DNA of 15,700 nt from Acidimicrobiia bacterium (GTDB lineage: Bacteria > Actinomycetota > Acidimicrobiia > Acidimicrobiales > Acidimicrobilacustridaceae), in the NCBI GenBank assembly GCA_018882825.1, contig VERC01000021.1:1-15700 (forward strand), read 5' to 3'. The translations under genes and the position numbers were made by a program. Below the pieces are notes generated by a model. It was not told where the DNA came from. It saw only the letters and a program-made list of their open reading frames with translations, and did not search any database. Positions 1 to 15,555 of the stretch are shown piece after piece (position 1 is the first letter of the stretch; the number at the start of each line of letters is the position of its first letter).

Positions 1-531
1 CACCTCGATCGAGCCGGCGAAGCCATGGATCGAACCCAGTGCGGGGAGGACTCGAGCCACATCGGGCCGCGCCAGGTCGGCTCGGAGGATCATCGCTGGT
101 GACGTGCCGATCCGGACGCTCACGTCGATGGGGGACCTGGGCGCCTTCGGATCGGCCGCCCATCCGCTGAGCGTCACGAGGTTCCTTCCTCCGGCGACCA
201 GATCCAGGAACCCGAAGGGAGGGGAGGGCGTGACCTGCACGGTCCGACAACCGAGCAGCGGGTTCGAGCCCGGGCCCGAGAGGTTGATGGCGTAGACGCA
301 CACCGAGTGTGATCCGGGCGCCGCCGGGATCGACGCAGTGAACCCGTGTCGCGCTCCGGCGACCGGGAAGACCCGGCCCACGTCGGGACGGTTCCCTGCT
401 GCGGTGAGGGCCGTCCCGGCACTGTCGACGTAGACGTGGACCTGTGTGGCCGAGACATCGAGGCTGGGATCGATGGCCCAACCGGAGATGGACACCGATT
501 CCGGCCCTCCGACCACCGCGTCGAGATGGCC
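1..531 (-). repeat. Two tandem GWxxDP extracellular repeat modules inside the SGNH hydrolase gene
   Basis: Module 1 (plus 229-531, residues 316-416) and module 2 (plus 1-213, residues 422 onwards, incomplete) align over G(H/F)LD...GG...V..SGWA.DP...V.V...RPDV.RV.P..G..HGF..SI. They are diverged at sequence level, so this is a protein-domain repeat and not a recent DNA duplication. Similar modules are, to my knowledge, common in secreted actinobacterial proteins. Further copies may lie past the left edge. Confidence 0.75.
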
Positions 532-1476
532 GATCGTGTCCCCGTCGATGAACCGCACGTAGGCCGACATCTGCGCGGCCCAGCGGAGCGCGCCCGGCGA
601 GTAGGTGCTGCACTTCGGGACGATGCCGTCATAGGAGGCCGTGGACGGGCAGAAGTGGCCGAGGTCGGCGGACCGCACGTCGATGAGGCCGTTCCGACAG
701 AGCGGATTGGTCACCTCCCACGATCCGCAGGGCTGGACCTTGGTCCACGAACCCTGTGTCGTGGCGAAGGGGCTGAATCCATCGATGACCCCGACTGCTG
801 CTCCGCGGGCGCGCCACTCGCTGGAGGCCTGCCGGTACACGCCATCGAGGGGGTGTGTCTCCGACCGGAACCCTGACGGGATCTCCCCGATCCTCCACTC
901 GCCGACGGCGGCGGGGGTCATTCCCGTGGGTGCCTGATCCGCGAACCCGTCGGTCTCGGTGTCGATGCCGGTCTCTGCCCACGTCTCGAATCGGCTCCCT
1001 GCGGGCACCCTCTGATCAGATGCTGCTGTCGTCGTCGTCGGTCGCAGTACAGGGGGCGGGGTGACGAGGGCGAGAGGAACGCCGAACGACGAGAGTCGCC
1101 CGGCCACGACGTCGACGTCGGCGCGGTACTTCTCGGCGATCTGTTCCTGCGTCGAGGAACCCTTCATACAGGCAGTGGCGGCGTTCCCGGAGAACGTGGA
1201 GATCACCAACTTCGGTCGCAATGATCGCGCGGCGCTGATCATCCGCTCCTGGTAGTCGCACAGGGCCGTACCGCCCATCGCGTCGACACGGACGTCGTAG
1301 GCATCACCCATCAGGAACACGATGTAGTCGAGCGATTCGAAGGTGAGGGAGTCGCCGTAGACGAGCACGACGGGTTTGACGATCTCACAGCCCGAAAGAC
1401 CCATGCCCATCAGTAGCGCGGCCAACCCGATCGCCATGGATCGGAACAGACGTTTCCGCCTCGGATTGGGGGGCAT
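1..1476 (-). CDS. SGNH/GDSL-family hydrolase lipoprotein with C-terminal GWxxDP repeats (3' end outside window)
   Basis: An open frame of 492 codons runs without a stop from ATG 1476 to the left edge. An in-frame TGA lies directly upstream (1479-1477) and a GGAGAA ribosome site (plus 1481-1486) stands 4 bases before the ATG. Residues 1-30 form a lipoprotein signal (RRKR, hydrophobic stretch, lipobox LSGC with Cys30). YGDSL at 40-44 gives the nucleophile Ser43 of block I. GNAA near residue 98 may be the block III Asn, and DLGH (Asp271, His274) fits the block V Asp-His pair. After the catalytic domain come two copies of a roughly 95-residue extracellular module (from residue 316 and from about 422) with GWAIDP/GWAADP, RPDV, HGF and VCVYAIN signatures. 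Likely an exported, membrane-anchored esterase or acetyl/acyl hydrolase; the substrate cannot be read. The repeats probably bind the cell surface or a polymer. Family call is firm from the GDS and DxxH motifs; specific role unknown. Confidence 0.85.
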   Translation of the reverse strand, partial: MPPNPRRKRLFRSMAIGLAALLMGMGLSGCEIVKPVVLVYGDSLTFESLDYIVFLMGDAYDVRVDAMGGTALCDYQERMISAARSLRPKLVISTFSGNAATACMKGSSTQEQIAEKYRADVDVVAGRLSSFGVPLALVTPPPVLRPTTTTAASDQRVPAGSRFETWAETGIDTETDGFADQAPTGMTPAAVGEWRIGEIPSGFRSETHPLDGVYRQASSEWRARGAAVGVIDGFSPFATTQGSWTKVQPCGSWEVTNPLCRNGLIDVRSADLGHFCPSTASYDGIVPKCSTYSPGALRWAAQMSAYVRFIDGDTIGHLDAVVGGPESVSISGWAIDPSLDVSATQVHVYVDSAGTALTAAGNRPDVGRVFPVAGARHGFTASIPAAPGSHSVCVYAINLSGPGSNPLLGCRTVQVTPSPPFGFLDLVAGGRNLVTLSGWAADPKAPRSPIDVSVRIGTSPAMILRADLARPDVARVLPALGSIHGFAGSIEV

Positions 1477-1676
1477 TCAGTTCTCCGCCGTTGACAACAG
1501 ACTTGATGAGTGGGGCACCCTTGGCTCGAACGAATCCGCCGATCGAGGCGCAGACCCCAACTTCACCCATGACCATAGACGGAAAATCGCGAGCTTCGTA
1601 CGCGGTCGACTCGAATCAGCCACCAGGAACTGCTGACGATCAAAGGTCCATCTTGGGCATCATCGTCGCCGACACT

Positions 1677-1686
1677 TCACATGTGA
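1677..1686. promoter_or_regulatory. 10-bp perfect palindrome TCACATGTGA, possible operator
   Basis: TCACATGTGA equals its own reverse complement and lies about 200 bp upstream of the SGNH hydrolase start, in the gene-free spacer. A repressor or activator site is possible. The palindrome is short and could be chance, and no second copy was seen nearby. Confidence 0.25.
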
Positions 1687-1786
1687 TCGGTCACGCTCAG
1701 GTTCCGGTCAACGGAGCGCAGGGGTGGGCGACGGCTCGCTCGGCTGTACGGTCCGGCGATCGGCCGTCGCTGCCCGTCCTCCCGAC

Positions 1787-1824
1787 CGATCGACCTGCCG
1801 GCCCACTCGCCGACCTGTCGATCG
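1787..1824 (-). terminator. Possible terminator hairpin after the aldolase operon
   Basis: CGATCGAC (1787-1794) and GTCGATCG (1817-1824) form an 8-bp stem; an inner CGGC/GCCG pair (1799-1802, 1809-1812) can extend it across a 4x4 internal loop. It begins one base after the stop codon of the Ltp2-like gene. There is no clear T-run after it, so this is a weak or non-canonical terminator at best. Confidence 0.35.
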
Positions 1825-1825
1825 A

Positions 1826-2986
1826 TCAGCGCGAGAGGATCAACCCACTGGTGGGGACGCCGGTGCCAGCGGTGACCAGCGCGTGTTCGACGTCGTCGAC
1901 CTGGTTGACCGAGGTGCCACGGATCTGGCGCACCACCTCGGCGATGCCGTTCATGCCGTGGATGTAGGCCTCACCGAGGAGGCCGCCGCTCGTGTTGATG
2001 GGCAGGTCGCCGCCCACCGACAGCCGCTCGATGGTGGCGAAGTCCTTGGCCTCACCTCGCCCGCAGAACCCGAGTTCCTCCAGTTGCACGAGCACGAACG
2101 GGGTGAAGTGGTCGTAGAGGAAGGCGGTGTCGATGTCGGTCGGCGACAACCCCGACTGCTGCCACAGTTGACGTCCGACCAGGCCGATCTCGGGCAACCC
2201 GGTGACGGTGTCGCGGTAGTAACTCGTCATCATCTCGCCCTCGCCGGTCGCACCCTGCGCGGCGGCGGTGACGATCGCCGGTCGCTGGGGCAGGTCCCGG
2301 GCCCGTTCCACCGACGTCAGCACCAATGCCACGCCGCCATCGCTCTCCTGGCAGCAGTCGAGCAGGCGCAGCACCGGTTCCACCACCCACGGTGAGGCCT
2401 GATGATCGGCCAGCGTGATCGGTCGCTCGTAGAACCAGGCGTTCGGATTGGTGGCGGCGTGGCGACGATCCACGACGGCGATCCGCCCGAAGTCCTCATT
2501 GGTCACCCCGTACTCGTGCATGTAGCGACGAGCGTGCAGCGACACCCACGAGCCGGGGGTCAGCAGACCGAACGGTGCGTACCACGACAACCACAACGGC
2601 ATGGTCGACATCGAACCGCCGATGTTGCCGAAGCGCAGTCCCGAGCGTTCGTTGAAGGCCCGGTAGATGACCACGACCTCGGCCGCTCCGCTCACCACGG
2701 CCATCGCTGCGTGCTGCACGGTGGCCGCCGCCGCACCACCGCCATAGGTGATGCGGCTGAACATGGTGATCTCGTCGAAGCCGAGGTTGCGACCCAGTTC
2801 GAGTTCCTCGGTGGTGTCCTGGGAGAAGGTGACCAGTCCGTCCACGTCGGCCGGGGTGAGACCGGCATCATCGAGGGCGGCCCGCACCGCCTCGCACGCC
2901 AGTTGCAGTTCGGTGCGACCGGACTCCTTGGAGAACTCCGTCTGGCCGATGCCGACGATGGCGGTGCGACCGCTCAAGGCACTCAT
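1826..2986 (-). CDS. Ltp2-like thiolase-superfamily aldolase (lipid-transfer protein)
   Basis: A 386-residue thiolase-fold protein starting MSALSGRTAIVGIGQTEF. At the position of the nucleophilic Cys of true thiolases the sequence reads ITYGGGAAAATVQHA, with no Cys. The C-terminal part has LYDHFTP, GFCGRGEA, NTSGG, GEAYIHGMNG and RQIRG, typical of the Ltp2/SCP-x-like branch rather than degradative thiolases. Tyr291 (LYDHF) and Tyr341 (AYIHG) are candidates for the catalytic tyrosines used by Ltp2 in place of thiolase chemistry. In Mycobacterium and Thermomonospora, Ltp2 with the DUF35 domain of ChsH2 cleaves a beta-hydroxyacyl-CoA steroid side chain by retro-aldol reaction. Here it is the last gene of the operon and its ATG overlaps the preceding TGA (ATGA, 2983-2986). 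The family assignment is strong; a steroid substrate is inferred and another branched acyl-CoA is possible. Confidence 0.88.
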   Translation of the reverse strand: MSALSGRTAIVGIGQTEFSKESGRTELQLACEAVRAALDDAGLTPADVDGLVTFSQDTTEELELGRNLGFDEITMFSRITYGGGAAAATVQHAAMAVVSGAAEVVVIYRAFNERSGLRFGNIGGSMSTMPLWLSWYAPFGLLTPGSWVSLHARRYMHEYGVTNEDFGRIAVVDRRHAATNPNAWFYERPITLADHQASPWVVEPVLRLLDCCQESDGGVALVLTSVERARDLPQRPAIVTAAAQGATGEGEMMTSYYRDTVTGLPEIGLVGRQLWQQSGLSPTDIDTAFLYDHFTPFVLVQLEELGFCGRGEAKDFATIERLSVGGDLPINTSGGLLGEAYIHGMNGIAEVVRQIRGTSVNQVDDVEHALVTAGTGVPTSGLILSR

Positions 2987-3390
2987 GCCGGCAGCGCCAC
3001 GATCGCCGTGCCCGTGGCGTGGTCGCCCATCTCGTTGGCGGCCCGCAGGTCGATGTGCACCAGTTGCTCGTCACCCGACGGCTCGACGTCCGTGACGCGG
3101 CCCGTGAACCGGAGCGTCGAACCCGGGTGCACCGGCACACCGAGGCGGATCGACAGCGACCGCACCAGCGAGTCGGGTCCTCCCCAGTCCGAGAGGTACC
3201 GGCCGCAGTAGGCGTTGGTCGACAGGATGTTCATGAAGATGTCGGCTGCACCCTGCTGCTGGGCGTAGTCGCGGTCGTGGTGGACGGGCATGAAGTCGCG
3301 GGTGGCGATGGCGCCGGCCACGATGCGGGTGGCCGTCATCTCCAACGCCAGTTCGGGCAGCTCATCGCCCACCTTCGGTGTCGGGGTCAT
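2983..3390 (-). CDS. MaoC-like enoyl-CoA hydratase subunit (ChsH1-like), catalytic type
   Basis: A 135-residue single hot-dog protein. The start is ATG 3390, overlapping the DUF35 gene stop (ATGA, 3387-3390); a longer open frame reaching 3849 in this frame is antagonised by the DUF35 gene on the same strand. RDFMPVHHD carries the D-x4-H pair of MaoC/PhaJ hydratases (Asp32, His37), with Met in place of the usual Asn. Length and position match ChsH1, which pairs with the MaoC domain of ChsH2 to hydrate a steroid side-chain enoyl-CoA. The neighbour at 3791-4345 lacks the His, so this is the likely catalytic subunit of a heteromer. Its product would be the substrate of the Ltp2-like aldolase encoded next. 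Confidence 0.85.
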   Translation of the reverse strand: MTPTPKVGDELPELALEMTATRIVAGAIATRDFMPVHHDRDYAQQQGAADIFMNILSTNAYCGRYLSDWGGPDSLVRSLSIRLGVPVHPGSTLRFTGRVTDVEPSGDEQLVHIDLRAANEMGDHATGTAIVALPA

Positions 3391-3794
3391 GCCTGCTCCC
3401 TCGGTCGGAACTGGTGGAGGACGAGATCGCCGTCGAATTCGGCGAAGCACACCTCGACGGGCATGTCGATCCGGGCGTCGGCCGGTTCGATGCCGACGAG
3501 GTTGCTCACCAGCCGGACGCCTTCGGCGAGGTCGACCAGCGCCACGATGTACGGATAGTCGAGGAAGGGGAACTGTGGGTGCAGCGGCATCACGAAACTG
3601 TGCAGGGTTCCCCGTCCGCTGGAGTCGACCGTGTCCCATTCGAGCGAGTTGCAGGAGGGACACATCGGGCGAGGCGGGTGGCGGAGTTCGCCACAGGACA
3701 CGCAGCGTTGGATGCGCACGACGTGCTCGCGCAGACCGTCCCAGAAGAATGCGGTGTCGGGCGAGATCGTGGGGCGAAGGGGAGTGGCCATCAC
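3387..3794 (-). CDS. DUF35 OB-fold / zinc-ribbon acyl-CoA-binding partner protein
   Basis: A 135-residue protein with an N-terminal helix (residues 12-25), a rubredoxin-like zinc ribbon (CVSC at 31-34, CPSC at 45-48) and a C-terminal OB fold: the standard DUF35 layout. DUF35 proteins bind to thiolase-fold enzymes and help hold the acyl-CoA; the DUF35 domain of ChsH2 is required for Ltp2 activity. Here it is a free-standing gene between two MaoC genes, corresponding to the C-terminal domain of ChsH2. The start may be GTG 3794 (4-base overlap with the previous stop) or ATG 3791 (1-base overlap); both imply translational coupling. Family confidence is high; partnership with the Ltp2-like protein is inferred from the operon. 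Confidence 0.88.
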   Translation of the reverse strand: MMATPLRPTISPDTAFFWDGLREHVVRIQRCVSCGELRHPPRPMCPSCNSLEWDTVDSSGRGTLHSFVMPLHPQFPFLDYPYIVALVDLAEGVRLVSNLVGIEPADARIDMPVEVCFAEFDGDLVLHQFRPREQA

Positions 3795-4345
3795 GCGCTC
3801 CCGGGGGCGAACTTGAGGATCCGGAAGCGCTGCCGACCCACGACCTCACCGGCCTCGTCGGTGTAGGTGGTGAGCCAGGTGCAGAAGTGACCGGGTCCGA
3901 GTCGGGTCGCCTTCTCCTCGGAGATGCTCTCGACGATGTTGGTGGCGCTGATGCGTTCGCCGAGTCGCAGGTGCCGCTCGATCTCGAACTCCGAGCCCAC
4001 GGCCAACGTGCCGGTGAAGCCGCGTCGTTCGAACACGGTCATGATGCTGTCGCCCTCGGACTCGGTGGGAGCCCCGCCCCGCTCGGCGATGCCGGTGATG
4101 ACCGGGGAGGGCATCGTCCACGTCTGGAGCATCATCGGTGGGGCCACGATGGCGCCGAACCTCGACCGGGCGGCCGCCTCCGGATCGGTGTACACGGGGT
4201 TGGCGTCCTCGAAGGCGGCGGCCCAGTGGCGGATCATCGGCTGGTTCACCGGATCCGGCCCCTCACTGAACCCCGAACCCCCGGGCGGTCGGCCGATGAG
4301 GGCGTCGAGTTCGGCACGGAACGCGTCGGCGTCTGCGGATTCCAT
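3791..4345 (-). CDS. MaoC-like dehydratase-family protein (ChsH2 N-domain-like), lacking catalytic His
   Basis: A 184-residue hot-dog protein of the MaoC N-terminal type. The motif region reads FEDANPVYTDP: Asp47 is kept but the catalytic His of the D-x4-H pair is Tyr52. APPMMLQTW and a C-terminal RFRILKF are typical of the family. It is first in the leftward operon and starts at ATG 4345, with an AGGA element about 9 bases upstream. Followed at once by the DUF35 gene, it looks like the N-terminal half of ChsH2 as a separate protein, and would form the non-catalytic half of a hydratase heteromer with the protein at 2983-3390. A different hydratase with unusual chemistry cannot be excluded. 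Confidence 0.82.
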   Translation of the reverse strand: MESADADAFRAELDALIGRPPGGSGFSEGPDPVNQPMIRHWAAAFEDANPVYTDPEAAARSRFGAIVAPPMMLQTWTMPSPVITGIAERGGAPTESEGDSIMTVFERRGFTGTLAVGSEFEIERHLRLGERISATNIVESISEEKATRLGPGHFCTWLTTYTDEAGEVVGRQRFRILKFAPGSA

Positions 4346-4423
4346 GGGAGGGTCCTACCACACCGACCCTCGAGCCGGCGTCGGCCCGGCTCGACAGCAG
4401 GTCGTTGAAAGTACGGTCTGGTG
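4346..4423. promoter_or_regulatory. Divergent promoter region with central inverted repeat
   Basis: A 78-base gap separates the start of the leftward hydratase/aldolase operon from the rightward CoA-transferase gene, so both promoters must lie here or in the adjoining coding sequence. A 9-bp perfect inverted repeat, TCGAGCCGG (4370-4378) and CCGGCTCGA (4386-4394) with a 7-base spacer, sits at its centre, about 37 and 42 bases from the two start codons. That suits an operator for a dimeric regulator controlling both sides. It could also fold as an RNA hairpin. No clear -10/-35 pair was seen. Confidence 0.5.
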
Positions 4424-6838
4424 ATGGCGAGAACAGTGTCCGACGAGAACGCCGGTCCGCTGGCCGACGTGCGCGTACTCGAGTGCGGACAGGGTGTGGC
4501 CGTCGGTCAACTGGGCAAGTTGTTCGTCGACGCGGGGGCCGACGTCATCAAGGTCGAACCGGTCGGGGGCGACCGCCTGCGTCGTGTGGCGGCGACCGTC
4601 GAGGTGCCCGAAGGCGAGGACGGCGCACTGTTCCGGTTCCTCGGAGCGGGGAAACGGTCGATCATCGGGAGGCTCGATGACGAGCGCGTCACTTCGCTGC
4701 TGCCCGGCGTCGACGTGGTGATCGAGGACGGTGATCCCGACCTCGACATCGACGCCTTGCGCGCCGCCCATCCACGCGTGGTCGTGGTGTCGATCTCGCC
4801 CTATGGGCGCAGCGGACCGTGGGCCGGACGACCGGCCACCGACCTCACCCTCCAGGCCGAGTCGGGCGGACTCCAGTTCCGTGGTCCCACCGATCGACCG
4901 CCCATCCAGGCCGGCGGTCTCATCACCGAGTTCCTCGGCGCGCTGTTCGCCGCTGCGCCCACCCTCGCCGCGGTGCTCGAGGTGCAGGCCGGTGGCGACG
5001 GAACCCATCTCGACGTCTCGATCCACGACGTGATGGCCCTGGCGGGCTCGAATCATCTCGATCTCGTGCATCAACTCGCCGGAAGTCCGGAGGTCGGTCC
5101 GCCGGTCCGCACCCTCGACACTCCCGGCATCGAACGGGCCGCCGACGGTCTGGTGGCGTTCAACACCAACGCCGGCCACATGATGCAGATGTTCCTGCTC
5201 ATGATCGGACATCCCGACCTCATGGACGACCCGGTGTACCTCAGTCTCAACGAGCGACTGGCCATGGGGCCGACGTGGCAGTCGATGATCGACACGTGGA
5301 CCACGGCCCACACCGTCGACGAGATCGTGCAGTCGGCGGTGGAACTCCGCGTGCCGGTGGCGCCCTGTCATGACGGCGCCTCGATCGTCACCGACGAGCA
5401 ACTGGTGGCTCGCGAGGCCTTCGTCACCGGTGCCGACGGGTTCGTGCGCCCCCGCCCGCCCTACCGACTCGATGGTCGTCGGCTGGAGCCGGCCGACGAG
5501 GTGCCCCGACCCGGTGCGCACGACGCCGAGGTCGGACCCTCCACGTGGTCGGCACGGTCGACGTCGGCGAGTGGGTCCATGGATGACTTGTCCGCGGTTC
5601 GGTCGATGCCGAACGGTCGACCGCTCGAGGGTCTGCTCGTGGTCGATCTCACCTCCTGGTGGGTGGGGACACTCACGACCCAGTTCCTCGGCCGACTGGG
5701 TGCCGACGTCGTGCACGTCGAGGGCCCCGGTCGACCGGACGGCATGCGCCTCACCGGCAAGATGTTCGCCCGGACCGAGGCGTGGTGGGAGTACGGCCAC
5801 ATGTTCGCCGCCGTCGACACCGATCGACGGGCCATCGCCGTCGATCTGGCCAGCGAGGACGGACGCGAGGTGCTGTGGCGACTCATCGAACGCGCCGACT
5901 TCCTCGTCGAGAACTTCGCGCCGCGCGTCGCCGAGTCGTGGGGACTGACCCACGAGGCGGTGCTGGCCCGCAACCCGGGCATCGTCTACCTGCGCATGCC
6001 GGCCTTCGGGCTGGACGGCCCGTGGCGCGACCGACCGGCATTCGCCCAGACCATCGAGCCGATGTCGACGATGTCGTCCATCACCGGTTACCCCGATGGC
6101 AAGCCGGTGTCGAAGGGAGGCCTGCCCGACCCGGTCGGTGGCTCCACGGGCGCGTGGGCAGCGATGGTGGCCCACGCCGAGCGCCTGCGCACCGGTCGTG
6201 GAGTGGCGGTGGAGTCGGTGATGTTGGAGGCGGCGGTGAACGTGTCCGCTCAGCCGGCACTGGAGTTCCTGGCCCACGGAACGACGATGGGCCGTCATGG
6301 CAATCGTTCGTCGCACGCCGCGCCCCAGGGTGTCTACCCGTCGGTGGCCGATGGTGAGTGGGTGGCGGTGAGTGTCGTGGACGACGCGCAATGGCGGTCG
6401 CTGGCCGGACTGATCGGTGGTGACGCACTGGCCGCCGATCCTCGATTCGCCACTCACGGCGATCGGTTCGCCGCCCACGACGAGCTCGACGCTCTGCTCG
6501 CGGCGTGGACGGTGTCGCGTCGCGCCGACGCCGCGGCGGACGAACTGGTGGCCGCCGGAGTGCCCGCCGGATCATGCCGGGATCCCCGGACGTTGCGGCG
6601 ACACCCCCAGTACGTCGGGCGCGGTGTGTTCGAGACGGTCGACCATCCGGTGCTCGGGGCCATCGAGGTGCCCGGTCAGCCCTATCGCCAACCCGGGATG
6701 GAGACGTGGATCACCCGGCCGGCCCCGACCTTCGGCCAGCACAACACCGAAGTGCTGCGCGAAGCGGGGTTCACCCCTGAGGAGATCGCCGGGCTGGAGG
6801 CCGCGGGCGTCATCGCCGATCGCCCCCGCGACCTCTGA
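4424..6838 (+). CDS. Tandem-fused CaiB/BaiF (class III) CoA-transferase
   Basis: An 804-residue protein with two CaiB/BaiF domains: residues 1 to about 375 and 400-804, joined by a variable linker. Each begins with the family pattern (DVRVLECGQGVAVGQLGKLF; LLVVDLTSWWVGTLTTQFLG). Class III CoA-transferases move CoA between carboxylic acids through a catalytic Asp-CoA intermediate. In the second half this is Asp569 (LPDPVGGSTG). In the first half the aligned place is Thr168, next to Glu169 (LITEFLGALF), so the N-terminal half is probably structural. The two halves are only distantly alike, so the fusion is old. ATG 4424 is chosen; GTG 4421 is directly before it. No strong ribosome site is seen, so leaderless translation is possible. 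Divergent to the hydratase/aldolase operon, it may activate the acid degraded there; the substrate is unknown. Confidence 0.88.
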   Translation: MARTVSDENAGPLADVRVLECGQGVAVGQLGKLFVDAGADVIKVEPVGGDRLRRVAATVEVPEGEDGALFRFLGAGKRSIIGRLDDERVTSLLPGVDVVIEDGDPDLDIDALRAAHPRVVVVSISPYGRSGPWAGRPATDLTLQAESGGLQFRGPTDRPPIQAGGLITEFLGALFAAAPTLAAVLEVQAGGDGTHLDVSIHDVMALAGSNHLDLVHQLAGSPEVGPPVRTLDTPGIERAADGLVAFNTNAGHMMQMFLLMIGHPDLMDDPVYLSLNERLAMGPTWQSMIDTWTTAHTVDEIVQSAVELRVPVAPCHDGASIVTDEQLVAREAFVTGADGFVRPRPPYRLDGRRLEPADEVPRPGAHDAEVGPSTWSARSTSASGSMDDLSAVRSMPNGRPLEGLLVVDLTSWWVGTLTTQFLGRLGADVVHVEGPGRPDGMRLTGKMFARTEAWWEYGHMFAAVDTDRRAIAVDLASEDGREVLWRLIERADFLVENFAPRVAESWGLTHEAVLARNPGIVYLRMPAFGLDGPWRDRPAFAQTIEPMSTMSSITGYPDGKPVSKGGLPDPVGGSTGAWAAMVAHAERLRTGRGVAVESVMLEAAVNVSAQPALEFLAHGTTMGRHGNRSSHAAPQGVYPSVADGEWVAVSVVDDAQWRSLAGLIGGDALAADPRFATHGDRFAAHDELDALLAAWTVSRRADAAADELVAAGVPAGSCRDPRTLRRHPQYVGRGVFETVDHPVLGAIEVPGQPYRQPGMETWITRPAPTFGQHNTEVLREAGFTPEEIAGLEAAGVIADRPRDL

Positions 6839-6843
6839 ATCAC

Positions 6844-6858
6844 CGGCCGTGCGGGCCG
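6844..6858. terminator. Small hairpin between convergent genes
   Basis: CGGCC (6844-6848), loop GTGCG, GGCCG (6854-6858) lies in the 23-base gap between the stop codons of the CoA-transferase gene (6838) and the antiporter gene (6862). It could serve as a bidirectional terminator. The stem is only 5 bp and lacks a T-run. Confidence 0.3.
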
Positions 6859-6861
6859 AGT

Positions 6862-7974
6862 TCAGGGAACGAGACTGAGGAACACGAAAGCGGCGAACAC
6901 GGCGAGATGTTGCGCCCCCTGCAGCACGGTGGCGCGCCCCGACCCGAACGTCAGCGTGCCGATCACGGCAGTGAGCGCCAGCAGCACGATGCCCGTGGGC
7001 CCGAGACCGAGCACGATCGGACCCTCCAGCCAGATCGAGGCGATGGCGATCGCCGGGATGGTCAGGCCGATACTGGCCAACGCCGATCCCAGCGAGAGGT
7101 TGAGGCTCGTCTGCATCTCGCCCCGATGGGCGGCCCGGATGGCGGCGACAGATTCGGGCAGGAGGATCATCACGGCGATGACCACGCCCACGAACGCCTG
7201 TGGGGCGCCGAACCACGCCACCGTCTCCTCGATCCGCGGCGCCAGCACCTTGGCCAGACCGATCACACCCACGAGACTCACGACGAGGAGCGTCGACCGG
7301 GACAACAGCCCGTCCATGCGGCCATCGCGCGGTTCGCGTGCCGTCACGTGGGCCAGTTCGTCGTCGGCCTCGTCATCGAGCGCATCAGGGGACAGGAACA
7401 TCCACCGATGTCGGATCGTCTGCACGAACACGAACACCGAGTAGACGACGAAGGCGGACACGGCGGCGAAGGCGAACTGTGAACCGGTGAAGGTGTTGCC
7501 CTCGGAACTGGACGTGAACGTGGGCAGCACGAGTGCCAGTGTGGCGATCGTCATCACCGTGCCGAGCAGGGCATTGGCGCCCTGCTCGCTGAATCGCACG
7601 ATGTGCTCCCGTCGGGAGCGCACGATGATGGAGAGCCCGACGACCCCGTTGCACACGATCATGATGGCGGCGAAAACCGTGTCGCGAGCGAGCATCGATG
7701 TCGACTCGGGCTTGGTGATCATGAGCATGAGGACCAGCGACACTTCGATGACCGTGACGGCGAGGGCCAGCACGAGGGTCCCGAACGGTTCGCCGACTCG
7801 ATGGGCGATCGCCTCGGCGTGGCCGACGGCGATGATGACCAGCGCCACATGCAGCACGGCCAGCAGCACGGCGAGGGCCGGCGCCGGAGTCGAGCCGAAC
7901 GTGAACAGCACGACGACCAGTCCCACTGCCGGCAGGACGATCGATGAGGCGGTGCCGATTCGATCGGTGGTCAT
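6862..7974 (-). CDS. chaA: ChaA-type Ca2+(Na+/K+)/H+ antiporter
   Basis: A 370-residue polytopic membrane protein with about ten or eleven hydrophobic segments, close to the 366 residues of E. coli ChaA. Hallmarks of the family are HAEAIAHRVGEPFGTLVLAL followed by AVTVIEVSL in the first half, and LPESVAAIRAA...NLSLGSALASIGLTIP in the second: the two conserved acidic-helix repeats of Ca2+/cation antiporters. An acidic cytoplasmic loop (DALDDEADDELAH) separates the halves. The start is ATG 7974, overlapping the TGA of the upstream methyltransferase gene (ATGA, 7971-7974); an open frame extending to 8199 in this frame lies inside that gene and reads as Arg-rich noise. It likely exports Ca2+ or Na+/K+ in exchange for protons at the plasma membrane. 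Co-transcription with a methyltransferase is unexplained. Confidence 0.87.
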   Translation of the reverse strand: MTTDRIGTASSIVLPAVGLVVVLFTFGSTPAPALAVLLAVLHVALVIIAVGHAEAIAHRVGEPFGTLVLALAVTVIEVSLVLMLMITKPESTSMLARDTVFAAIMIVCNGVVGLSIIVRSRREHIVRFSEQGANALLGTVMTIATLALVLPTFTSSSEGNTFTGSQFAFAAVSAFVVYSVFVFVQTIRHRWMFLSPDALDDEADDELAHVTAREPRDGRMDGLLSRSTLLVVSLVGVIGLAKVLAPRIEETVAWFGAPQAFVGVVIAVMILLPESVAAIRAAHRGEMQTSLNLSLGSALASIGLTIPAIAIASIWLEGPIVLGLGPTGIVLLALTAVIGTLTFGSGRATVLQGAQHLAVFAAFVFLSLVP

Positions 7975-8993
7975 GGCCGGGGAGCGAACAGGTAGTGGGC
8001 CACGAACCATTCGTCGCCGTGGTCGAACTCGAACAACGTGGCGCAGGCGAGGAAGAACATCCGCCACCGCTGGAACCAGATCGGCCCGTCGGCCCCATAG
8101 GTGCGGTTCATCACCGACATGACCTCGGTGCGTCGATCGTCGTGACGCTCCAGCCAGTGGCGCAGTGTGCGGCCGTAGTGCGAGCCGTTCACCTTCCATC
8201 GATCGACGAGGTCCATGACGTCGAGCTCGGGGAGCAGGTCCCAGGACGGCATGGTGCCGCCGGTGAAGAAGTGTGTCGTCATCCAGTCCGCCTCACTACG
8301 AGTCTCGAACGGGTAGCACGAGTCCCGGTTGACGAAGATGTGCACGAACAGTCGACCGTCCGGCTCCAGCCAGTTGGAGATCCGTTCCAACAGGAGCGCA
8401 TGGTTGCGCACGTGCTCCATCATCTCGACGCTCACGATCCGGTCGAAGCGGTCTGTGGGAGCGAAGTCGTTGATGTCGGCGGTGACGACCTCGACGTTGG
8501 TGATGCCCTCATCGGCACAACGGGCCTCGATGTCGAGTCGCTGGGCGTTCGAGTTGGACACCGCCGTCACCGAGCACCCGGGGAACCGACGAGCGATCCA
8601 CAGTGACAGTGACCCCCAACCGCAACCGAGATCGAGCACGCGCATGCCGTCGGTGATGCCGGCCCGTTCGACGGTGAGGTCGAGCATCGCCTCCTCGGCC
8701 TCGGCCAGGCTCTCGGTACCCATCGGGTAGAGCACACTCGAGTACTTGCGTTGCGGTCCCAGCACCAGATGGAAGTACTCGGGCGGCAGTTCGTAGTGCT
8801 GTTCGTTGGCCCGATCGGTGGCGATGGCCACCGGGCCCTGACGGCAGGTGGCGAGGTAGGCGGCCTGCACTCCGGTTCGATTCGCCCGCCGCGCCGTGGT
8901 GCGACGGCGACGACACAACAGCCACATCGCCATTCCGAGCGTACGGTCGTCGAAACACCCTCGTTCGGCGGCGTCGATCACACGCTGCAGCAC
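7971..8993 (-). CDS. CFA-synthase/coclaurine-N-methyltransferase-like SAM-dependent methyltransferase
   Basis: A 340-residue class I methyltransferase. VLDLGCGWG at 119-127 is the SAM-binding motif. NEQHYELPPEYF (63-74) and KYSSVLYP (83-90) are characteristic of the cyclopropane-fatty-acid-synthase-like group, and SVEMMEHV follows. The C-terminal half carries FFTGGTMPS, WKVNGSHYGRTL and a WFVAHYLF end, which resembles plant coclaurine N-methyltransferase more than E. coli Cfa; the N-terminal lipid-binding domain of Cfa is replaced by about 60 basic residues. The start is GTG 8993, backed by GGAGG (plus 8999-9003) five bases away. It may cyclopropanate or methylate a membrane fatty acid, or methylate an amine; the sequence does not decide. 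It overlaps the antiporter gene by 4 bases. Confidence 0.83.
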   Translation of the reverse strand: MLQRVIDAAERGCFDDRTLGMAMWLLCRRRRTTARRANRTGVQAAYLATCRQGPVAIATDRANEQHYELPPEYFHLVLGPQRKYSSVLYPMGTESLAEAEEAMLDLTVERAGITDGMRVLDLGCGWGSLSLWIARRFPGCSVTAVSNSNAQRLDIEARCADEGITNVEVVTADINDFAPTDRFDRIVSVEMMEHVRNHALLLERISNWLEPDGRLFVHIFVNRDSCYPFETRSEADWMTTHFFTGGTMPSWDLLPELDVMDLVDRWKVNGSHYGRTLRHWLERHDDRRTEVMSVMNRTYGADGPIWFQRWRMFFLACATLFEFDHGDEWFVAHYLFAPRP

Positions 8994-9050
8994 GTCGTCC
9001 TCCGCACTCGGCCTGTGTTCACGCTATCGGTGGCCAGGGGGGCCCGAACG

Positions 9051-9087
9051 CGAGAGGGCCCGGAGTCGGCGACCCCGGGCCCTCTCG
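9051..9087 (-). terminator. Strong hairpin terminator downstream of the fasciclin gene
   Basis: CGAGAGGGCCCGG (9051-9063) and CCGGGCCCTCTCG (9075-9087) form a perfect 13-bp GC-rich stem with an 11-base loop, 17 bases past the fasciclin gene stop codon. No long T-run follows on the minus strand (CGTTCGGG), common for high-GC actinobacterial terminators. It separates the fasciclin gene from the methyltransferase/antiporter pair. Confidence 0.75.
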
Positions 9088-9104
9088 GAATCGGCAAGCT
9101 GACG

Positions 9105-9644
9105 TCAGGGAAGGAGCACGCCGTCGATCACGTGGATCACGCCGTTGCTGCCGACGATGTCGGTCGACACGACGTTCACGGTGTTGCCCTTGGCGTCGGT
9201 GATCGACACCTTGCCGTTGTTCACGTTCACGGTGAACTCGGCACCGTTGACGGTCTTCACCTTGCCCGGCTTCACGTCCTCGGCCAGTACCTCACCGGCC
9301 ACCACGTGGTAGGTGAGGATCGACTTCAACTGTTCCGGCGTCAGCGAGGCCAACGTGCCCGCAGGCAGCTTGGCGAAGGCGGCGTTGGTGGGAGCGAAGA
9401 TGGTGAACGGTCCCTTGCCCGACAACGTGTCGACCAGGCCGGCGGTCTTGACCGCACCGACGAGGGTCGAGAAATCGGCGTTGCCCGACGCGATCTCGAC
9501 CAGGTTCTTGGCGGCGATGGTGGTCGACGATTTGGCCGTGGTGTCGCTCGAACTCGACTTCGAGTCACTGCTGCAGGCCACGGTGCCGAGGGTGAGGGCG
9601 GCGGCGACGGCGATGCCGCCGACCAGGGTGAGGGGACGACGCAT
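9105..9644 (-). CDS. Fasciclin (FAS1)-domain lipoprotein
   Basis: A 179-residue exported lipoprotein. Residues 1-24 form the signal ([10 protein letters not shown], hydrophobic core, lipobox TVAC with Cys24). A Ser/Thr/Lys-rich linker runs to about 45, and one FAS1 domain fills the rest: [24 protein letters not shown] (H1 box), LTYHV, and [12 protein letters not shown] (H2 box) at the very end. This matches the small mycobacterial MPT70/MPT83-type secreted FAS1 proteins in layout. Such domains mediate adhesion or ligand binding at the cell surface. The start at ATG 9644 is fixed by AAGGAG (plus 9652-9657) seven bases upstream; the longer open frame to 10067 reads as Arg-rich noise before this Met. 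A 15-base palindrome lies 30 bases upstream. Confidence 0.92.
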
Positions 9645-10015
9645 TGGAATGCTCCTTGGGGGGATTCGGGGGGAGGGGTGCTGCACCCCCACTGTCGGGA
9701 ATCGAGAGGGTCGGCGCCGTCCACCAACCACACGAACAGGTCGCCGGGGGCAGCCACGGGGGTGGCCGCGGCGCGGCCGGAGTTCCAGAACTTCGCATCG
9801 GTCACCTCGAGCAGTTTCGGCGGCTCGATGACGGGGCCGCCGACGAAGCCCGGGCTGGTGAGCGTGACCGTGCCGTGAGCGTCGGTGACCGCCAGCGGGC
9901 ATCCCGTCGTCCGTTCGGCCAGTTCCAGCAATGCTGCCGCCGACGGATCGGCGGTGAGGATCCGCATGAACTCGGCGTACATCTCCCGCCACTCGGTGAG
10001 GACTCGACGATCCAT
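9341..10015 (-). CDS. Unknown ORF running into the fasciclin gene
   Basis: ATG 10015 is preceded by GGGAGGG (plus 10021-10027) five bases away. Residues 1 to about 112 look like a real soluble protein: balanced composition, GC-rich third codon positions, an N-terminal helix ([13 protein letters not shown]), then [19 protein letters not shown], faintly like a PAS/GAF-type strand pattern. From about residue 113 the translation becomes Pro/Ser/Arg-rich, and from residue 124 to the stop at 9341 it lies inside the fasciclin gene in another frame. Both other frames are also open there, so no frameshift gives an early stop. Possibilities: a true about 300-base overlap, a damaged gene that lost its stop, or the C-terminal tail being tolerated junk. 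No family recognised. Confidence 0.5.
9675..9689. promoter_or_regulatory. 15-base palindrome upstream of the fasciclin gene
   Basis: GGGGTGC, one central T, GCACCCC: 7-bp arms, 30 bases before the fasciclin start codon and just before its ribosome site. It could be an operator or, as RNA, a short hairpin. It is flanked by runs of six G on its left (plus strand). Confidence 0.4.
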
Positions 10016-10083
10016 GTGTTCCCTCCCTGCGCCGGTGCGCCCGACGTCCGTCCGCTGCCCGCAGCATCGTCGCCGCCGCCAGC

Positions 10084-10092
10084 GGGGGGGGG
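10084..10092. repeat. Run of nine G residues upstream of the unknown ORF
   Basis: A G9 homopolymer on the plus strand lies 69 bases upstream of the unknown ORF start, outside coding sequence. Long single-base runs slip during replication, so this could vary expression of the downstream gene, or could be a sequencing error site. Confidence 0.6.
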
Positions 10093-10110
10093 AACCTCGA
10101 TCGCCCAGTT

Positions 10111-10125
10111 GGAGCGAATCGCTCC
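10111..10125. promoter_or_regulatory. 15-base palindrome after the YqjF gene
   Basis: GGAGCGA, central A, TCGCTCC: 7-bp arms, 33 bases past the YqjF-like gene stop and about 95 bases upstream of the unknown ORF. As RNA it would form a 5-bp stem with a 5-base loop. It could be an operator or a weak terminator; it has the same 7-1-7 layout as the palindrome at 9675-9689 but a different sequence. Confidence 0.35.
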
Positions 10126-10158
10126 GGTGCGTTCGTCGTCCCGGTGTGAACGATGCCG

Positions 10159-10827
10159 TCAGGCCCAGCGAGGACGACCGACGCGGACCTTCACCGACGG
10201 AGCATGGTGGAGCAGCGCGGGACCGTCGAGCACGCCGGCCAGGGTGCCGGCGATGCCGGTGTCGGTCTCGACGGCCTCGGCGGTGTGGAGGGGCCATCGC
10301 TCGTGATCGACCGGTGCGGTCAGCAGCCGGCCGGCCAGTGGCGTGCGGGCGTAGAGCCGCCACCGACCGGTGAGGAAGTGATCGAGGTCGGTCGGCTCGG
10401 CGATCGCCTCACCCACCCGCAGGGTCATCGAACCGGAGGCCTGATCGGGCCAACGTCGACGCACCGACCACGAGTGCAATGTGCGGGAGTGGGAGGACTC
10501 GATCGTCGCGGTGCAGTAGGGCAGGGCGAAGACGGTGCGGGCCACCCAGGTGGGCAGACGGTTGGGGATGTCGAGCGAGTAGAACCACACACCCGGCCCG
10601 TGCCGGCCCGTGACGTAGGTACGCACGTTGAACTCCGGGAACCGGGCCGTGGTGGGCACCGCGGGCAGGCCGGTCAGACGCAGGTCGCACATCTCGAAGC
10701 CCACCAACGACACCCACGCGGCACCGTCAAAGGTGTCGACCTCGACGCCCTGGGGGAGCGTCGCTCGCAACAGACGGGGGTCGACGGGCCAATGGGCGAA
10801 ACTCACGTCTCGCCACGTCTGTCGCAT
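10159..10827 (-). CDS. YqjF-family (DUF2071) protein
   Basis: About 222 residues starting [17 protein letters not shown], the usual opening of DUF2071/YqjF proteins. [19 protein letters not shown], a LTGRWRLYA block and VDHERWPLH are the family's conserved motifs, in the usual order. The function of the family is not established; the fold resembles acetoacetate decarboxylase-like proteins. ATG 10827 is preferred because the family begins here; GTG 10881 in the same frame would add 18 residues and overlap the upstream membrane-protein gene by 29 bases. It follows two tiny membrane proteins with a 25-base gap, so it is probably co-transcribed with them. Confidence 0.82.
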
Positions 10828-10852
10828 CACGGGACGCCGGATGGGAGTCCCC

Positions 10853-10984
10853 TCAGGCGCGAGCGCTGCTGCCCTCGTCACCCTTCGACCACTTGCTGAA
10901 CGACAACATGCCGTAGACGAGAACTCCGACGAACACGATCAGGGTGACGGCCCCGCCGGCGATGAACAGCCCGGTCTCGGTCAT
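10853..10984 (-). CDS. Small single-span membrane protein (43 aa)
   Basis: MTETGLFIAGGAVTLIVFVG begins a 43-residue protein with one hydrophobic helix (about residues 5-28) and a charged C-terminal tail (SKWSKGDEGSSARA), probably cytoplasmic. Its ATG 10984 overlaps the TGA of the upstream membrane-protein gene (ATGA, 10981-10984), which is good evidence that it is translated. No family recognised. The tight coupling to a second small membrane protein suggests the two form a complex. Confidence 0.65.
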   Translation of the reverse strand: MTETGLFIAGGAVTLIVFVGVLVYGMLSFSKWSKGDEGSSARA

Positions 10985-11193
10985 CGCCGCGACTCCCGTC
11001 CGCTCATCATCAGTGCGCCCATCGACAGGATCGAGGGCACCCAGATGCCGACGAACACGCCGTTGAGGCGACCGTTCACATCGTCCCCGGCGGCGAAATA
11101 GAGGACGATGCTCAGCACCATGCTCAGGAACGCGGCCAGGAACAGACTTCCCTTGAGGACGACATCCGGTTTCAACGGCACCTCCACGTGCAC
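10981..11193 (-). CDS. Small two-span membrane protein (about 70 aa)
   Basis: A protein of about 66-70 residues with two hydrophobic helices (about residues 13-34 and 44-63), a short loop FAAGDDVNGRLNG between them, and an Arg-rich tail. All candidate starts are GTG (11193, 11187, 11181) and none has a strong ribosome site, so the N-terminus is uncertain. It overlaps the 43-residue membrane-protein gene by 4 bases. No family recognised. The gene lies 36 bases downstream of the mycothiol-isomerase-family gene stop and may belong to the same transcript. Confidence 0.65.
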   Translation of the reverse strand: MHVEVPLKPDVVLKGSLFLAAFLSMVLSIVLYFAAGDDVNGRLNGVFVGIWVPSILSMGALMMSGRESRR

Positions 11194-11229
11194 TTCGGAA
11201 CGAGGGGGTCAACCACCGTCGCGGCGAAC

Positions 11230-11904
11230 CTATTCCCCCCGCTCGCCCAGCGAGGTGATCGGGAGCGGGAGATGGTCATCGAGCAGTCGCACGTAGGGCA
11301 TGACGTCCGACGAGTCACCCAGTGCGCGCAACTCCTCCTCGGTGCGGCGGCTGTAGAGCACGCGTACCGCCTCCCAAGGGGAGACCTCGAGGACCCAGCC
11401 CGTCGGCGCGTCATGCGATCGCCACACCCCGTTCGTGTGGCGGACCTCGATGGCGCCGAGACCGCGTCGTTCCAGTTCGGGCACGCACGACTGCAGCGCC
11501 CGGGGCACGAACACGGCACCGTCGAGCACCGAATGGTCGGCTCGCCCCAGCGCCCCGCGCAGATCGTGTTCGTGCACGACAAGGTCGTCGAGCAGTACGC
11601 CACCCCCGCCGGACACCATGGCGGCGATGGTGTCGTCGACCGACTCCCATTCGGCGGCCAGTTCCTCGATCGGGTGATCGGCCCGGGAGGCCCGGATGGC
11701 GTCGAGCCACGCGTCGAGGTCGTCACCGGGAAGATCGCCGGCTGCGATGGCGGCGGGCATCGACACGCAGTGGGCGACGAGGTCGTGCGCCGACCACTCG
11801 GGACAGGCGGGCACGGTGACGCGCCGGGCCTCGGTGCCGACGTCGGTCATCAGTTGCAGCATGCGGGCGCGGGCGTCCCGGTACAGCGCGAGTGGATCGG
11901 TCAT
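11230..11904 (-). CDS. Mycothiol-dependent maleylpyruvate isomerase-family (DinB-like) protein
   Basis: A 224-residue protein of the four-helix DinB/MDMPI family. CPEWSAHDLVAHC (34-46) holds the first metal-ligand His45. DDLVVHEHDLRGALG carries the second ligand site, Asp107 plus His111, where the reference maleylpyruvate isomerase has Glu-x3-His. It has the C-terminal extension of the actinobacterial TIGR03083 group. These proteins are mostly of unknown substrate; some use mycothiol as cofactor for isomerisation or conjugation. ATG 11904 fits the family start; the open frame continuing to 11991 lies partly in the amidohydrolase gene. The gap to that gene is 22 bases, so the two are probably co-transcribed. 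Replacement of Glu by Asp may alter metal binding. Confidence 0.8.
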   Translation of the reverse strand: MTDPLALYRDARARMLQLMTDVGTEARRVTVPACPEWSAHDLVAHCVSMPAAIAAGDLPGDDLDAWLDAIRASRADHPIEELAAEWESVDDTIAAMVSGGGGVLLDDLVVHEHDLRGALGRADHSVLDGAVFVPRALQSCVPELERRGLGAIEVRHTNGVWRSHDAPTGWVLEVSPWEAVRVLYSRRTEEELRALGDSSDVMPYVRLLDDHLPLPITSLGERGE

Positions 11905-11926
11905 CGACCCACTCTGGCAGGCTCGG

Positions 11927-13306
11927 TCACGACCCCTGCCAACGCGCCGCCACGGCTCGATGCCGCCCGAGCATCTCGTCGATGCGGGCATCGACCAACA
12001 GGCCGTTGGTCACCACCGGACGTCCGGCGATGATCGTGTCGCGGGCCGACACCGGTCCACAGCGCAGCCACGCCTCGATGGGATCGGCGAGGGCGCCGGC
12101 GAACCGCACGCCATCGAGGGCCCACACGGCGACGTCGCCCGCAGCGCCGGGTGCCAGCACACCGATCTCGCCGGTGCGACCCAGGCAGGCAGCTCCGCCG
12201 AGGGTGGCCAACTCGAGGGCGTCACGAGCCTGCATCGAGGAGGGACCCGTTCGCAGTCGGCCCTGGAGCATGGCGGTACGGGCCTCCATCCACAGCGAGG
12301 CCGAGTCGACCGACGACGATCCATCGCACCCGAGGCCGACGGGCACCCCGGCGGCGCGGTACTCGGTGACCGGGGCCAGGCCGACGCCGAGGATCATGTT
12401 GGAACTGGGGCAGTGGGCCACTCCGGTTCCCCAGCGAGCGAGGCGTTCGATCTCGGCCGCGTTCGGGTGGACGCAGTGGGCGACCCACGAACGATCCGAT
12501 CCCCAACCGACCTCCTCGAACAGTTCGATCGGGCGACACCCGTAGACGTCCCGGCAGTAGACGTCCTCGTCGACGTCCTCGGCCAGATGGGTGTGCAGGC
12601 GCACATCGAGGCGTTCGGCCAGCTCGGCCGTCGAGCGCATCAGTTCGGGCGTCACCGAGAACGGCGAGCACGGGGCCAGCGCCACCTGCACCATGGCCAG
12701 AGGTGAGCGTTCGTGATGCTGTGCCACCAGTCGTTCTGAATCGGCGAGGATCTCGTCGTCGGTCTGCACCACGCTGTCGGGTGGGAGCCCGCCGTCCTTC
12801 TGGGAGCGACTCATCGAGCCGCGCGTGGCGTGGAACCGGAACCCGAACTCGCGTGCCGCGGTGATCTCGGCGGTGATGAGGTCGCCCCCACCGCGCGGAT
12901 GCACGTAGAGGTGATCCATGGTGGTGGTGCATCCGCCGAGGGCGAGTTCGGCGAACCCGACCCAAGCCGAGAGGTAGGCCGCCTCCTCGTCGAGATGGGC
13001 CCAGATCGGGTACAGCGTCGTCAACCACTCGAACAAGGTGCCGCGCGTCGCCGGGGGCAGGGCGCGTGTGAGGTTCTGGTAGATGTGATGGTGGGTGTTC
13101 ACCAGACCAGGGGTGACGAGGCACCCCTCGGCCCGGATCGTCCGCGTGGCCGCCGGCTCGGTGCCGCGCCCGCCGACACCGACGACGGCACCGTCGGAGA
13201 TGGCCACCCAACCGCCGCGCAGTTCGGTCCGTTCGTCGTCACAGGTGGCGAGGAGTTCGGCACCGGCGACGAGCAGGTCGACGGTGGTCGCAGGATCGAT
13301 GGTCAT
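11927..13306 (-). CDS. 8-oxoguanine deaminase-like amidohydrolase
   Basis: A 459-residue amidohydrolase of the AtzA/TrzN/SsnA group. Metal and catalytic residues are present: HxH at His72/His74 in NTHHHIYQNLTRALP, His240 and Glu243 in LHTHLAED, His277 in VAHCVHPN and Asp328 in GLGCDGSSSVD. The stretch THHHIYQNLTRALPPA, LFEWLTTLYPIW and APCSPFSVT match what I recall of Pseudomonas 8-oxoguanine deaminase. That enzyme hydrolyses 8-oxoguanine to urate and ammonia in the cytoplasm. The start is ATG 13306, overlapping the TGA of the PLP-enzyme gene (ATGA, 13303-13306). Related triazine hydrolases and other purine deaminases are the alternatives; superfamily is certain, substrate moderately so. Confidence 0.82.
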   Translation of the reverse strand: MTIDPATTVDLLVAGAELLATCDDERTELRGGWVAISDGAVVGVGGRGTEPAATRTIRAEGCLVTPGLVNTHHHIYQNLTRALPPATRGTLFEWLTTLYPIWAHLDEEAAYLSAWVGFAELALGGCTTTMDHLYVHPRGGGDLITAEITAAREFGFRFHATRGSMSRSQKDGGLPPDSVVQTDDEILADSERLVAQHHERSPLAMVQVALAPCSPFSVTPELMRSTAELAERLDVRLHTHLAEDVDEDVYCRDVYGCRPIELFEEVGWGSDRSWVAHCVHPNAAEIERLARWGTGVAHCPSSNMILGVGLAPVTEYRAAGVPVGLGCDGSSSVDSASLWMEARTAMLQGRLRTGPSSMQARDALELATLGGAACLGRTGEIGVLAPGAAGDVAVWALDGVRFAGALADPIEAWLRCGPVSARDTIIAGRPVVTNGLLVDARIDEMLGRHRAVAARWQGS

Positions 13307-15518: not shown

Positions 15519-15525
15519 GGTGTCC

Positions 15526-15547
15526 TCGGTTTCGGAGTCGGTTTCGG
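15526..15547. repeat. Short direct repeat between two operon genes
   Basis: TCGGTTTCGG occurs twice, at 15526-15535 and 15538-15547 (12-base period), in the 37-base gap before the luciferase-like gene. It overlaps the ribosome-binding neighbourhood. Could be a slipped duplication or a site for a regulator. Confidence 0.4.
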
Positions 15548-15555
15548 GTTCGAGA

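Follow-up and report, generated by a model that had tools for sequence, protein, structure and literature searches.

Separate genes for the MaoC and DUF35 parts of ChsH2 in a predicted hydratase-aldolase gene set of Acidimicrobiia and mycobacteria

We analysed a stretch of 15,700 nucleotides from an Acidimicrobiia bacterium (assembly GCA_018882825.1, contig VERC01000021.1, positions 1 to 15,700 of the forward strand), referred to as the window in the rest of the text. The genome from which it comes (G000) consists of 299 contigs, amounts to 2.25 Mb as assembled and is 80% complete. The minus strand of the window carries an operon of four intact open reading frames (ORFs), which code for a MaoC-like half, a DUF35 protein, a ChsH1-like protein and an Ltp2-like protein, and neighbouring genes overlap by 1 or 4 bases. 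ChsH2 is a single polypeptide with a MaoC and a DUF35 part; here the two parts are two genes in different frames, and the locus is therefore classed as a split variant and not as ChsH2. The original prediction of four separate coupled genes is borne out by the ORFs and overlaps, with the sole nuance that the DUF35 gene may start at ATG 3791 or at GTG 3794. The features of the operon are as follows.

3791..4345, minus strand: stand-alone MaoC-like half, counterpart of the ChsH2 N-terminal domain; 184 aa, stop codon TGA at 3793-3791; PF13452
3387..3791, minus strand: free DUF35 protein with zinc ribbon and OB fold; 134 aa, start at ATG 3791 or GTG 3794; PF12172 and PF01796
3651..3704, minus strand: zinc-ribbon cysteines C30, C33, C44 and C47 of the DUF35 protein, from the sequence
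2983..3390, minus strand: ChsH1-like MaoC subunit; 135 aa; PF01575; Asp32 and His37 in TRDFMPVHHD
1826..2986, minus strand: predicted Ltp2-like retro-aldolase; 386 aa; NF005892; Tyr291 in YDHF, and Tyr341
3791..3794, minus strand: stop/start junction of the MaoC half and DUF35 genes, GTGATG; TGA shares 1 base with ATG 3791 (TGATG) or 4 with GTG 3794
3387..3390, minus strand: junction of the DUF35 and ChsH1-like genes, ATGA overlap, from the sequence
2983..2986, minus strand: junction of the ChsH1-like and Ltp2-like genes, ATGA overlap, from the sequence

Family and PDB matches, together with key residues, agree with the earlier assignment of the four parts to the ChsH2 N-terminal domain, the ChsH2 DUF35 domain, ChsH1 and Ltp2. 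The MaoC half matched PF13452 (FAS1_DH_region) at 69.4 bits in the Pfam comparison, and its closest PDB match was the larger chain of 4w78/4wnb (E 2e-21). The chains of 4w78 were also the top fold match (template modelling score, TM, 0.68) of its AlphaFold model, which has a predicted local distance difference test score (pLDDT) of 74.6 and is of low confidence across about residues 31-100. The ChsH1-like protein matched the smaller chain of the same entries (E 1.4e-29); the molecule names deposited for these chains in 4w78 are the reverse of those in 4wnb, which makes chain names unreliable. The pair displays the pattern of a heteromeric hydratase, with the Asp and His in the ChsH1-like subunit and a partner devoid of the His. 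In the latter the motif reads D47-x-N-P-x-Y52, and Asp47 and Tyr52 are invariant across 50 aligned sequences. We take Asp32 and His37 of the ChsH1-like protein to be the catalytic hydratase dyad, and the roles of the partner-subunit residues are assumed likewise; the MaoC half is thus predicted from its residues to be a non-catalytic, substrate-holding subunit.

The DUF35 protein matched 6ok1_B (E 3.9e-38), and its AlphaFold model (pLDDT 93.8) superposed on that chain with a TM of 0.89, a root-mean-square deviation of 1.2 and 48% identity in the fold match. We predict that it is the partner subunit of the aldolase. The Ltp2-like protein scored 649.6 bits against NF005892, for which the curated cut-off is 469, also matched Thiolase_C_1, and aligned with 6ok1_A at E 2.1e-170. 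NF005892 is named by NCBI for a lipid-transfer protein, and equating it with the Ltp2 family follows from the 6ok1_A match. In that alignment Tyr291 and Tyr341 coincide with Y294 (in YDHF) and Y344, the catalytic tyrosines of TcLtp2 according to the accessible text of PMC12329534.

The original prediction was overstated in one respect: comparison with homologues showed that the split is not confined to this locus but typical of a whole clade. An independent assembly from the same genus (G009; loci L011/L040) repeats the four-gene layout with protein identities of 82, 77, 76 and 90%, and separate MaoC and DUF35 frames were recovered in G009, G059, G041 and G056 when stop-to-stop ORFs were scored with purpose-built hidden Markov models. 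Eighty loci were named as the best of 588 confirmed, ranked by similarity to the window's clade, and within this best-hit sample the 38 loci L060-L097, from isolates and metagenome-assembled genomes (MAGs), were all split, while L098-L139 comprised 39 fused, two split (L118 and L135) and one undecided out of 42. The 159 labelled Ltp2 matches, repeat places included, were divided into 62 fused, 55 split, 17 that had DUF35 but no MaoC half or were cut, and 25 undecided. With the MaoC half as protein query, 3520 proteins matched at E <=1e-20, and the 120 matches listed were all of single-domain size (172-197 aa); this search admitted lengths up to 1.75 times that of the query, which kept many fused forms out. 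Where the two domains are fused (61 cases), they lie 5-57 residues apart, with a median of 15.

Operons often show short gene overlaps, and the informative part is the conservation of these overlaps. Fifty split loci of the clade were chosen, two of which (L060 and L182) are the same, leaving 49 distinct; the counts out of 50 below include this repeat. The DUF35 gene lies in frame +2 relative to the MaoC half in 45 of the 49 (the exceptions being L089, L090, L091 and L193). Their MaoC-DUF35 junction measures -1 base in 31 loci, -4 in 14, +1 in three and 0 in one, lengths that use the start codon nearest the stop and are thus biased towards short overlaps, the frame being unaffected. With the start chosen likewise, the ChsH1-like and Ltp2-like genes overlap by 4 bases in 48 of 49. 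The DUF35 and ChsH1-like genes are less than 300 bases apart in 24, and the other 25, all mycobacterial, have an insert of 1.1-1.2 kb at this position. This insert is of dehydrogenase size, and the one in L061 encodes an acyl-CoA dehydrogenase (CoA, coenzyme A). Both the C4 zinc-cysteine pattern of DUF35 and the ChsH1 pattern [TS][RK]D....H.D are kept in 50/50 loci. Among the uncut Ltp2 proteins of the clade, YDHF is present in 42/42 and the GEAY motif in 41/42 (L079 is without it).

Phylogenies were of the quick kind, supported by the Shimodaira-Hasegawa-like approximate likelihood ratio test (SH-aLRT) alone, and groups were named after the trees had been seen. In the Ltp2 tree (127 rows) the window, 41 other split loci and L160, which is cut upstream, formed a single clade of 43 rows with an SH-aLRT of 99. 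This clade spans mycobacteria, Acidimicrobiia and other MAGs and stands apart from the fused igr-type sets. Left out of the tree were same-place copies, L057, L020/L049 of G037 and L103 (cut upstream), and the undecided rows save ten named ones. L057 (G036) is a fused ChsH2 set in which the Ltp2-like gene is broken across three frames. The DUF35 tree, built on few columns, recovered a clade of 48 split rows (SH-aLRT 99). The tree of MaoC plus ChsH1 (134 rows with six HadAB rows) excluded L057, same-place repeats and sets without a nearby ChsH1 domain such as L202, and yielded a clade of 66 rows with an SH-aLRT of 100, made up of 49 split and 17 hydratase-only rows. All three trees thus place the genes of the window among ChsH1/ChsH2/Ltp2 relatives, within a separate clade, so that the phylogenetic refutation foreseen in the original prediction fails.

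Split and fused copies occur side by side in all seven mycobacterial genomes that were searched whole (L061, L067, L072, L079, L083, L089 and L091). The split loci L053, L118 and L135, the last two from Nocardioides, fall among fused forms outside the clade, and because of this placement the separation of MaoC from DUF35 seems, as far as gene trees can tell, to have arisen more than once. Rooting on HadAB puts fused forms at the base of the MaoC plus ChsH1 tree. A topology in which the fused forms (with the three stray splits) make up one clade was not rejected by the approximately unbiased (AU) test, either in this tree (P = 0.488) or in the DUF35 tree (P = 0.324), and the trees are compatible with fission as well as with later fusion.

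The hydratase pair also exists without the rest of the set. At E <=1e-30 the MaoC half had a match in 41 of the 296 genomes of the window's class, and the 30 class loci fetched comprised ten split four-gene sets (window included), eight MaoC/ChsH1 neighbours with no DUF35 between them, nine MaoC-ChsH1 single ORFs and three fused MaoC-DUF35 forms. The single ORFs (L191 and L194-L201, from nine genomes) join the MaoC half to a ChsH1-like domain, lack DUF35 and would be a MaoC-MaoC hydratase derived from the split clade. A tree that keeps the 49 split rows together to the exclusion of the hydratase-only rows was rejected (AU test, P = 0.0002); hydratase-only forms therefore arose among split forms. 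The Ltp2 of the clade was not found in the 17 hydratase-only genomes, the assemblies of which are partly incomplete (64-99%) with several loci near contig ends, so that an adjacent aldolase is possible there. Thirty Ltp2-like loci were fetched from these genomes (L014 and L213-L241). Seventeen of them are 64-70% identical to the window protein and all nearer fused forms; L232 (52% identity) stays undecided, its score with the clade being the higher by a small margin (401 against 388 bits); the remainder are nearer other groups, and unfetched matches reach at most 58% identity. Going by gene content, the hydratase and aldolase activities come apart in evolution.

Altogether, we estimate a probability of about 0.8 that the four genes encode two successive enzymes of the ChsH1-ChsH2-Ltp2 type, with the ChsH2 polypeptide split, a figure that covers the two activities and the split but not the substrate. 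The gene structure, families, residues, conservation and clade are observed; the assembly and reaction that follow are inferred. In a heteromeric enoyl-CoA hydratase made up of the MaoC half and the ChsH1-like protein, the former would hold the substrate and the latter supply the Asp and His for the addition of water to an alpha,beta-unsaturated acyl-CoA. The DUF35 and Ltp2-like proteins would form a heteromeric retro-aldolase, with Tyr291 as putative base and Tyr341 as putative acid, that cleaves the beta-hydroxyacyl-CoA to give a short acyl-CoA and a carbonyl compound. Subunit supply would be matched by gene overlap in place of a peptide linker. We expect the hydratase and the aldolase to be two complexes that can come apart, with no tether between them, and the split form would work by mass action between the two.

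We further consider, as a tentative idea to which we give a probability of about a quarter, a looser consequence of the separation: once MaoC and DUF35 were apart, the hydratase may have become an independent enzyme, kept alone in some lineages (in one lineage as a single MaoC-ChsH1 protein), while several Ltp-type aldolases of a cell might share a free DUF35 subunit. The latter part is suggested because G000 contains nine DUF35 OB-domain matches, two of which share one frame on contig C158. The same genome has a second DUF35 and Ltp2-like pair (L056; contig C224, 4973-6744), with no MaoC half found beside it; its Ltp2-like protein has the motif YENF, not YDHF, and lacks four residues close to the C terminus. 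Matches to Ltp2 at 54-57% identity occur in 15 of the 21 genomes of the genus; of the 14 loci of this kind that were fetched, 13 have an adjacent DUF35 gene.

Several observations weigh against the main reading of the four genes as a hydratase and a separate retro-aldolase acting on a steroid-like substrate. The proteins of one operon could still make one non-covalent complex. Within the genus, an Ltp2 at clade level is confined to G000 and G009 (2/21 genomes, 90% identity), other same-genus matches being at most 57% identical. Fused relatives keep the identical aldolase motif (39/39), which therefore gives no functional distinction between them and the split clade. The MaoC half carries Tyr in place of the usual His in 45 of the 49 distinct loci, keeps a His there in three (L188, L189 and L190), and is cut in one; judging by their D-x-N-P-x-H motif, both hydratase subunits might be catalytic in these three, where an inert role is unsafe. 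As for the substrate, the families searched revealed no acyl-CoA dehydrogenase or P450 in the window, which thus lacks the dehydrogenase pair and P450 of an igr-type operon. KshA (PF19298) had no match in G000 or G009 in a search in which 22 of 61 genomes matched, G000 being 80% complete and KshA the only ring-degradation gene searched. Because KshA was not found in either genome, the steroid nucleus may not be degraded in the window's organism. Across the genus, KshA matched in one of 21 genomes, and the split-clade genomes G041 and G059 have a match.

The alternative that survives best keeps the same enzymes and chemistry, is compatible with the enzyme reading given above, and has a non-steroid acyl-CoA as substrate, branched or cyclic (from an isoprenoid, a hopanoid or an aromatic acid) and possibly activated by the product of the adjacent gene:

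4424..6838 (or from GTG 4421), plus strand: two-domain family III CoA-transferase, 805 aa, divergent from the operon; PF02515 in two stretches, 513 bits

This gene lies ~75 bases from the operon and codes for what we infer to be a candidate substrate activator. A homologue 69% identical adjoins the same operon in G009, and homologues were found in 12 of the 43 loci compared at E 1e-15 (26% identical in L089). That the neighbour common to both genomes is a CoA-transferase and not a steroid cluster, that KshA is missing from the matches and that the genome is small all speak for a non-steroid substrate. It is opposed by the NF005892 score well over the cut-off, by the active-site features of steroid enzymes that are kept, and by two sets of genes elsewhere. 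Contig C73 of G000 carries an acyl-CoA dehydrogenase pair scoring 484 bits to 4x28_A and 248 bits to 6wy8_A, with 4x28 and 6wy8/6wy9 as the sole PDB matches at the thresholds used, and with alcohol and aldehyde dehydrogenase genes nearby. We take 4x28 and 6wy8, which the PDB tables call acyl-CoA dehydrogenases, to be sterol or steroid side-chain dehydrogenases. At L061 of Mycobacterium colombiense, the genes that flank the split set encode a P450 with CYP125MRCA as its best match (341 bits) and two acyl-CoA dehydrogenases with best matches 4x28_A and 6wy8_A. We consider a non-steroid substrate a serious candidate at somewhat less than an even chance. Because of the pair on C73 and the CYP125-like and dehydrogenase genes at L061, the favoured substrate in the window's organism, at about even odds, would be a CoA ester in which a steroid-like acid bears a short, alpha-branched side chain.

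A second alternative holds that the split makes no functional difference: direct contacts would still bring the four proteins together in one hydratase-aldolase complex that functions as fused ChsH2 does. The four genes do stay together, with DUF35 and ChsH1 either close by (24/49) or parted by one insert of dehydrogenase size (25/49). Against this, the hydratase pair occurs in 17 relatives with no DUF35 gene in the middle, and in the homologous Shy-Sal it is the DUF35 domain, not the MaoC domain, to which the aldolase binds (PMC11321319). We regard such a complex as rather unlikely. Far less probable is that the Ltp2-like/DUF35 pair is a thiolase like BbsAB or the archaeal thiolase-DUF35 enzymes: the fold is that of a thiolase and the DUF35 protein matches the BbsA model weakly, but the YDHF motif and Tyr pair are present, the Ltp2 model is far over its cut-off, and a BbsAB-type enzyme was rejected on both curated scores (46.8 bits against 250 for BbsA; 102.3 against 750 for BbsB). 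Finally, a sequencing or assembly frameshift in an ordinary fused chsH2, which the fragmentation of the genome into 299 contigs might have favoured, is close to discounted, because the G009 assembly and the clade loci, 38/38 of L060-L097 among them, keep the same layout, frame and junctions; an oddity of the window locus alone was likewise rejected, as the split form is found across many relatives.

Elsewhere in the window, positions 11927-15518 hold three minus-strand genes with 4-base overlaps. They code for an LLM-type oxidoreductase, a protein resembling diaminopropionate ammonia-lyase (NF006058, 338 bits against a cut-off of 276) and an 8-oxoguanine deaminase (NF006055, 597.5 against 532).

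Every part of this system is of a known kind, and published precedents exist for a split made artificially and for a DUF35 partner that is free; no description of a natural split of ChsH2, or of a second, split gene set in mycobacteria or Acidimicrobiia, turned up in our searches of an open-licence library. What emerges is a second, split set of hydratase-aldolase genes in many mycobacteria and in Acidimicrobiia, and a clade naturally without the hydratase-aldolase link, together with its hydratase-only relatives, lets the role of the DUF35 joining be tested with native proteins.

Among known systems, the benzoylsuccinyl-CoA thiolase BbsAB, PhlABC and the archaeal thiolase/HMG-CoA (3-hydroxy-3-methylglutaryl-CoA) synthase resemble the window in that DUF35 is a separate chain beside a thiolase-fold enzyme, although the DUF35 and Ltp2-like proteins of the window score far under the curated BbsA and BbsB cut-offs. 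To our knowledge, none of these systems has MaoC partners. In the proteobacterial Shy-Sal (9myr), the DUF35 domain mediates aldolase binding and the hydratase works without DUF35, as in our prediction; Shy-Sal differs in having a homodimeric MaoC, one fused protein and a Tyr/Cys aldolase dyad, according to the accessible parts of PMC11321319 and PMC12329534. The latter states that the reason for the native Shy-Sal complex remains unclear and raises channelling by ChsH1-ChsH2-Ltp2 as a question. A free DUF35 partner, a point that the original prediction overstated, is already in print as ChsH4 of Mycolicibacterium neoaurum, a 138-aa protein in an operon with the steroid side-chain aldolase Atf1, both described as key to the pathway; that system differs from the window in cleaving C22-C23 and, as far as the accessible text describes the operon, in having no MaoC half or ChsH1 gene (PMC10398937). 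ORF40/42/43 of Comamonas testosteroni TA441 are a homologous hydratase/aldolase in which ORF40 is naturally fused and was split in the laboratory; its MaoC and DUF35 halves, expressed apart, kept both activities (accessible text of PMC12502768). By analogy with these halves, the part of the earlier claim that stands is that DUF35 could act without a tether, while its joining of the aldolase without the hydratase would still be a prediction. Closest are the ChsH1-ChsH2 and Ltp2-ChsH2(DUF35) complexes of M. tuberculosis and Thermomonospora curvata (4w78, 4wnb and 6ok1), which have the same four domains, catalytic tyrosines and zinc cysteines; compared with them, the window is without dehydrogenases, encodes MaoC and DUF35 as two genes and belongs to a distinct clade.

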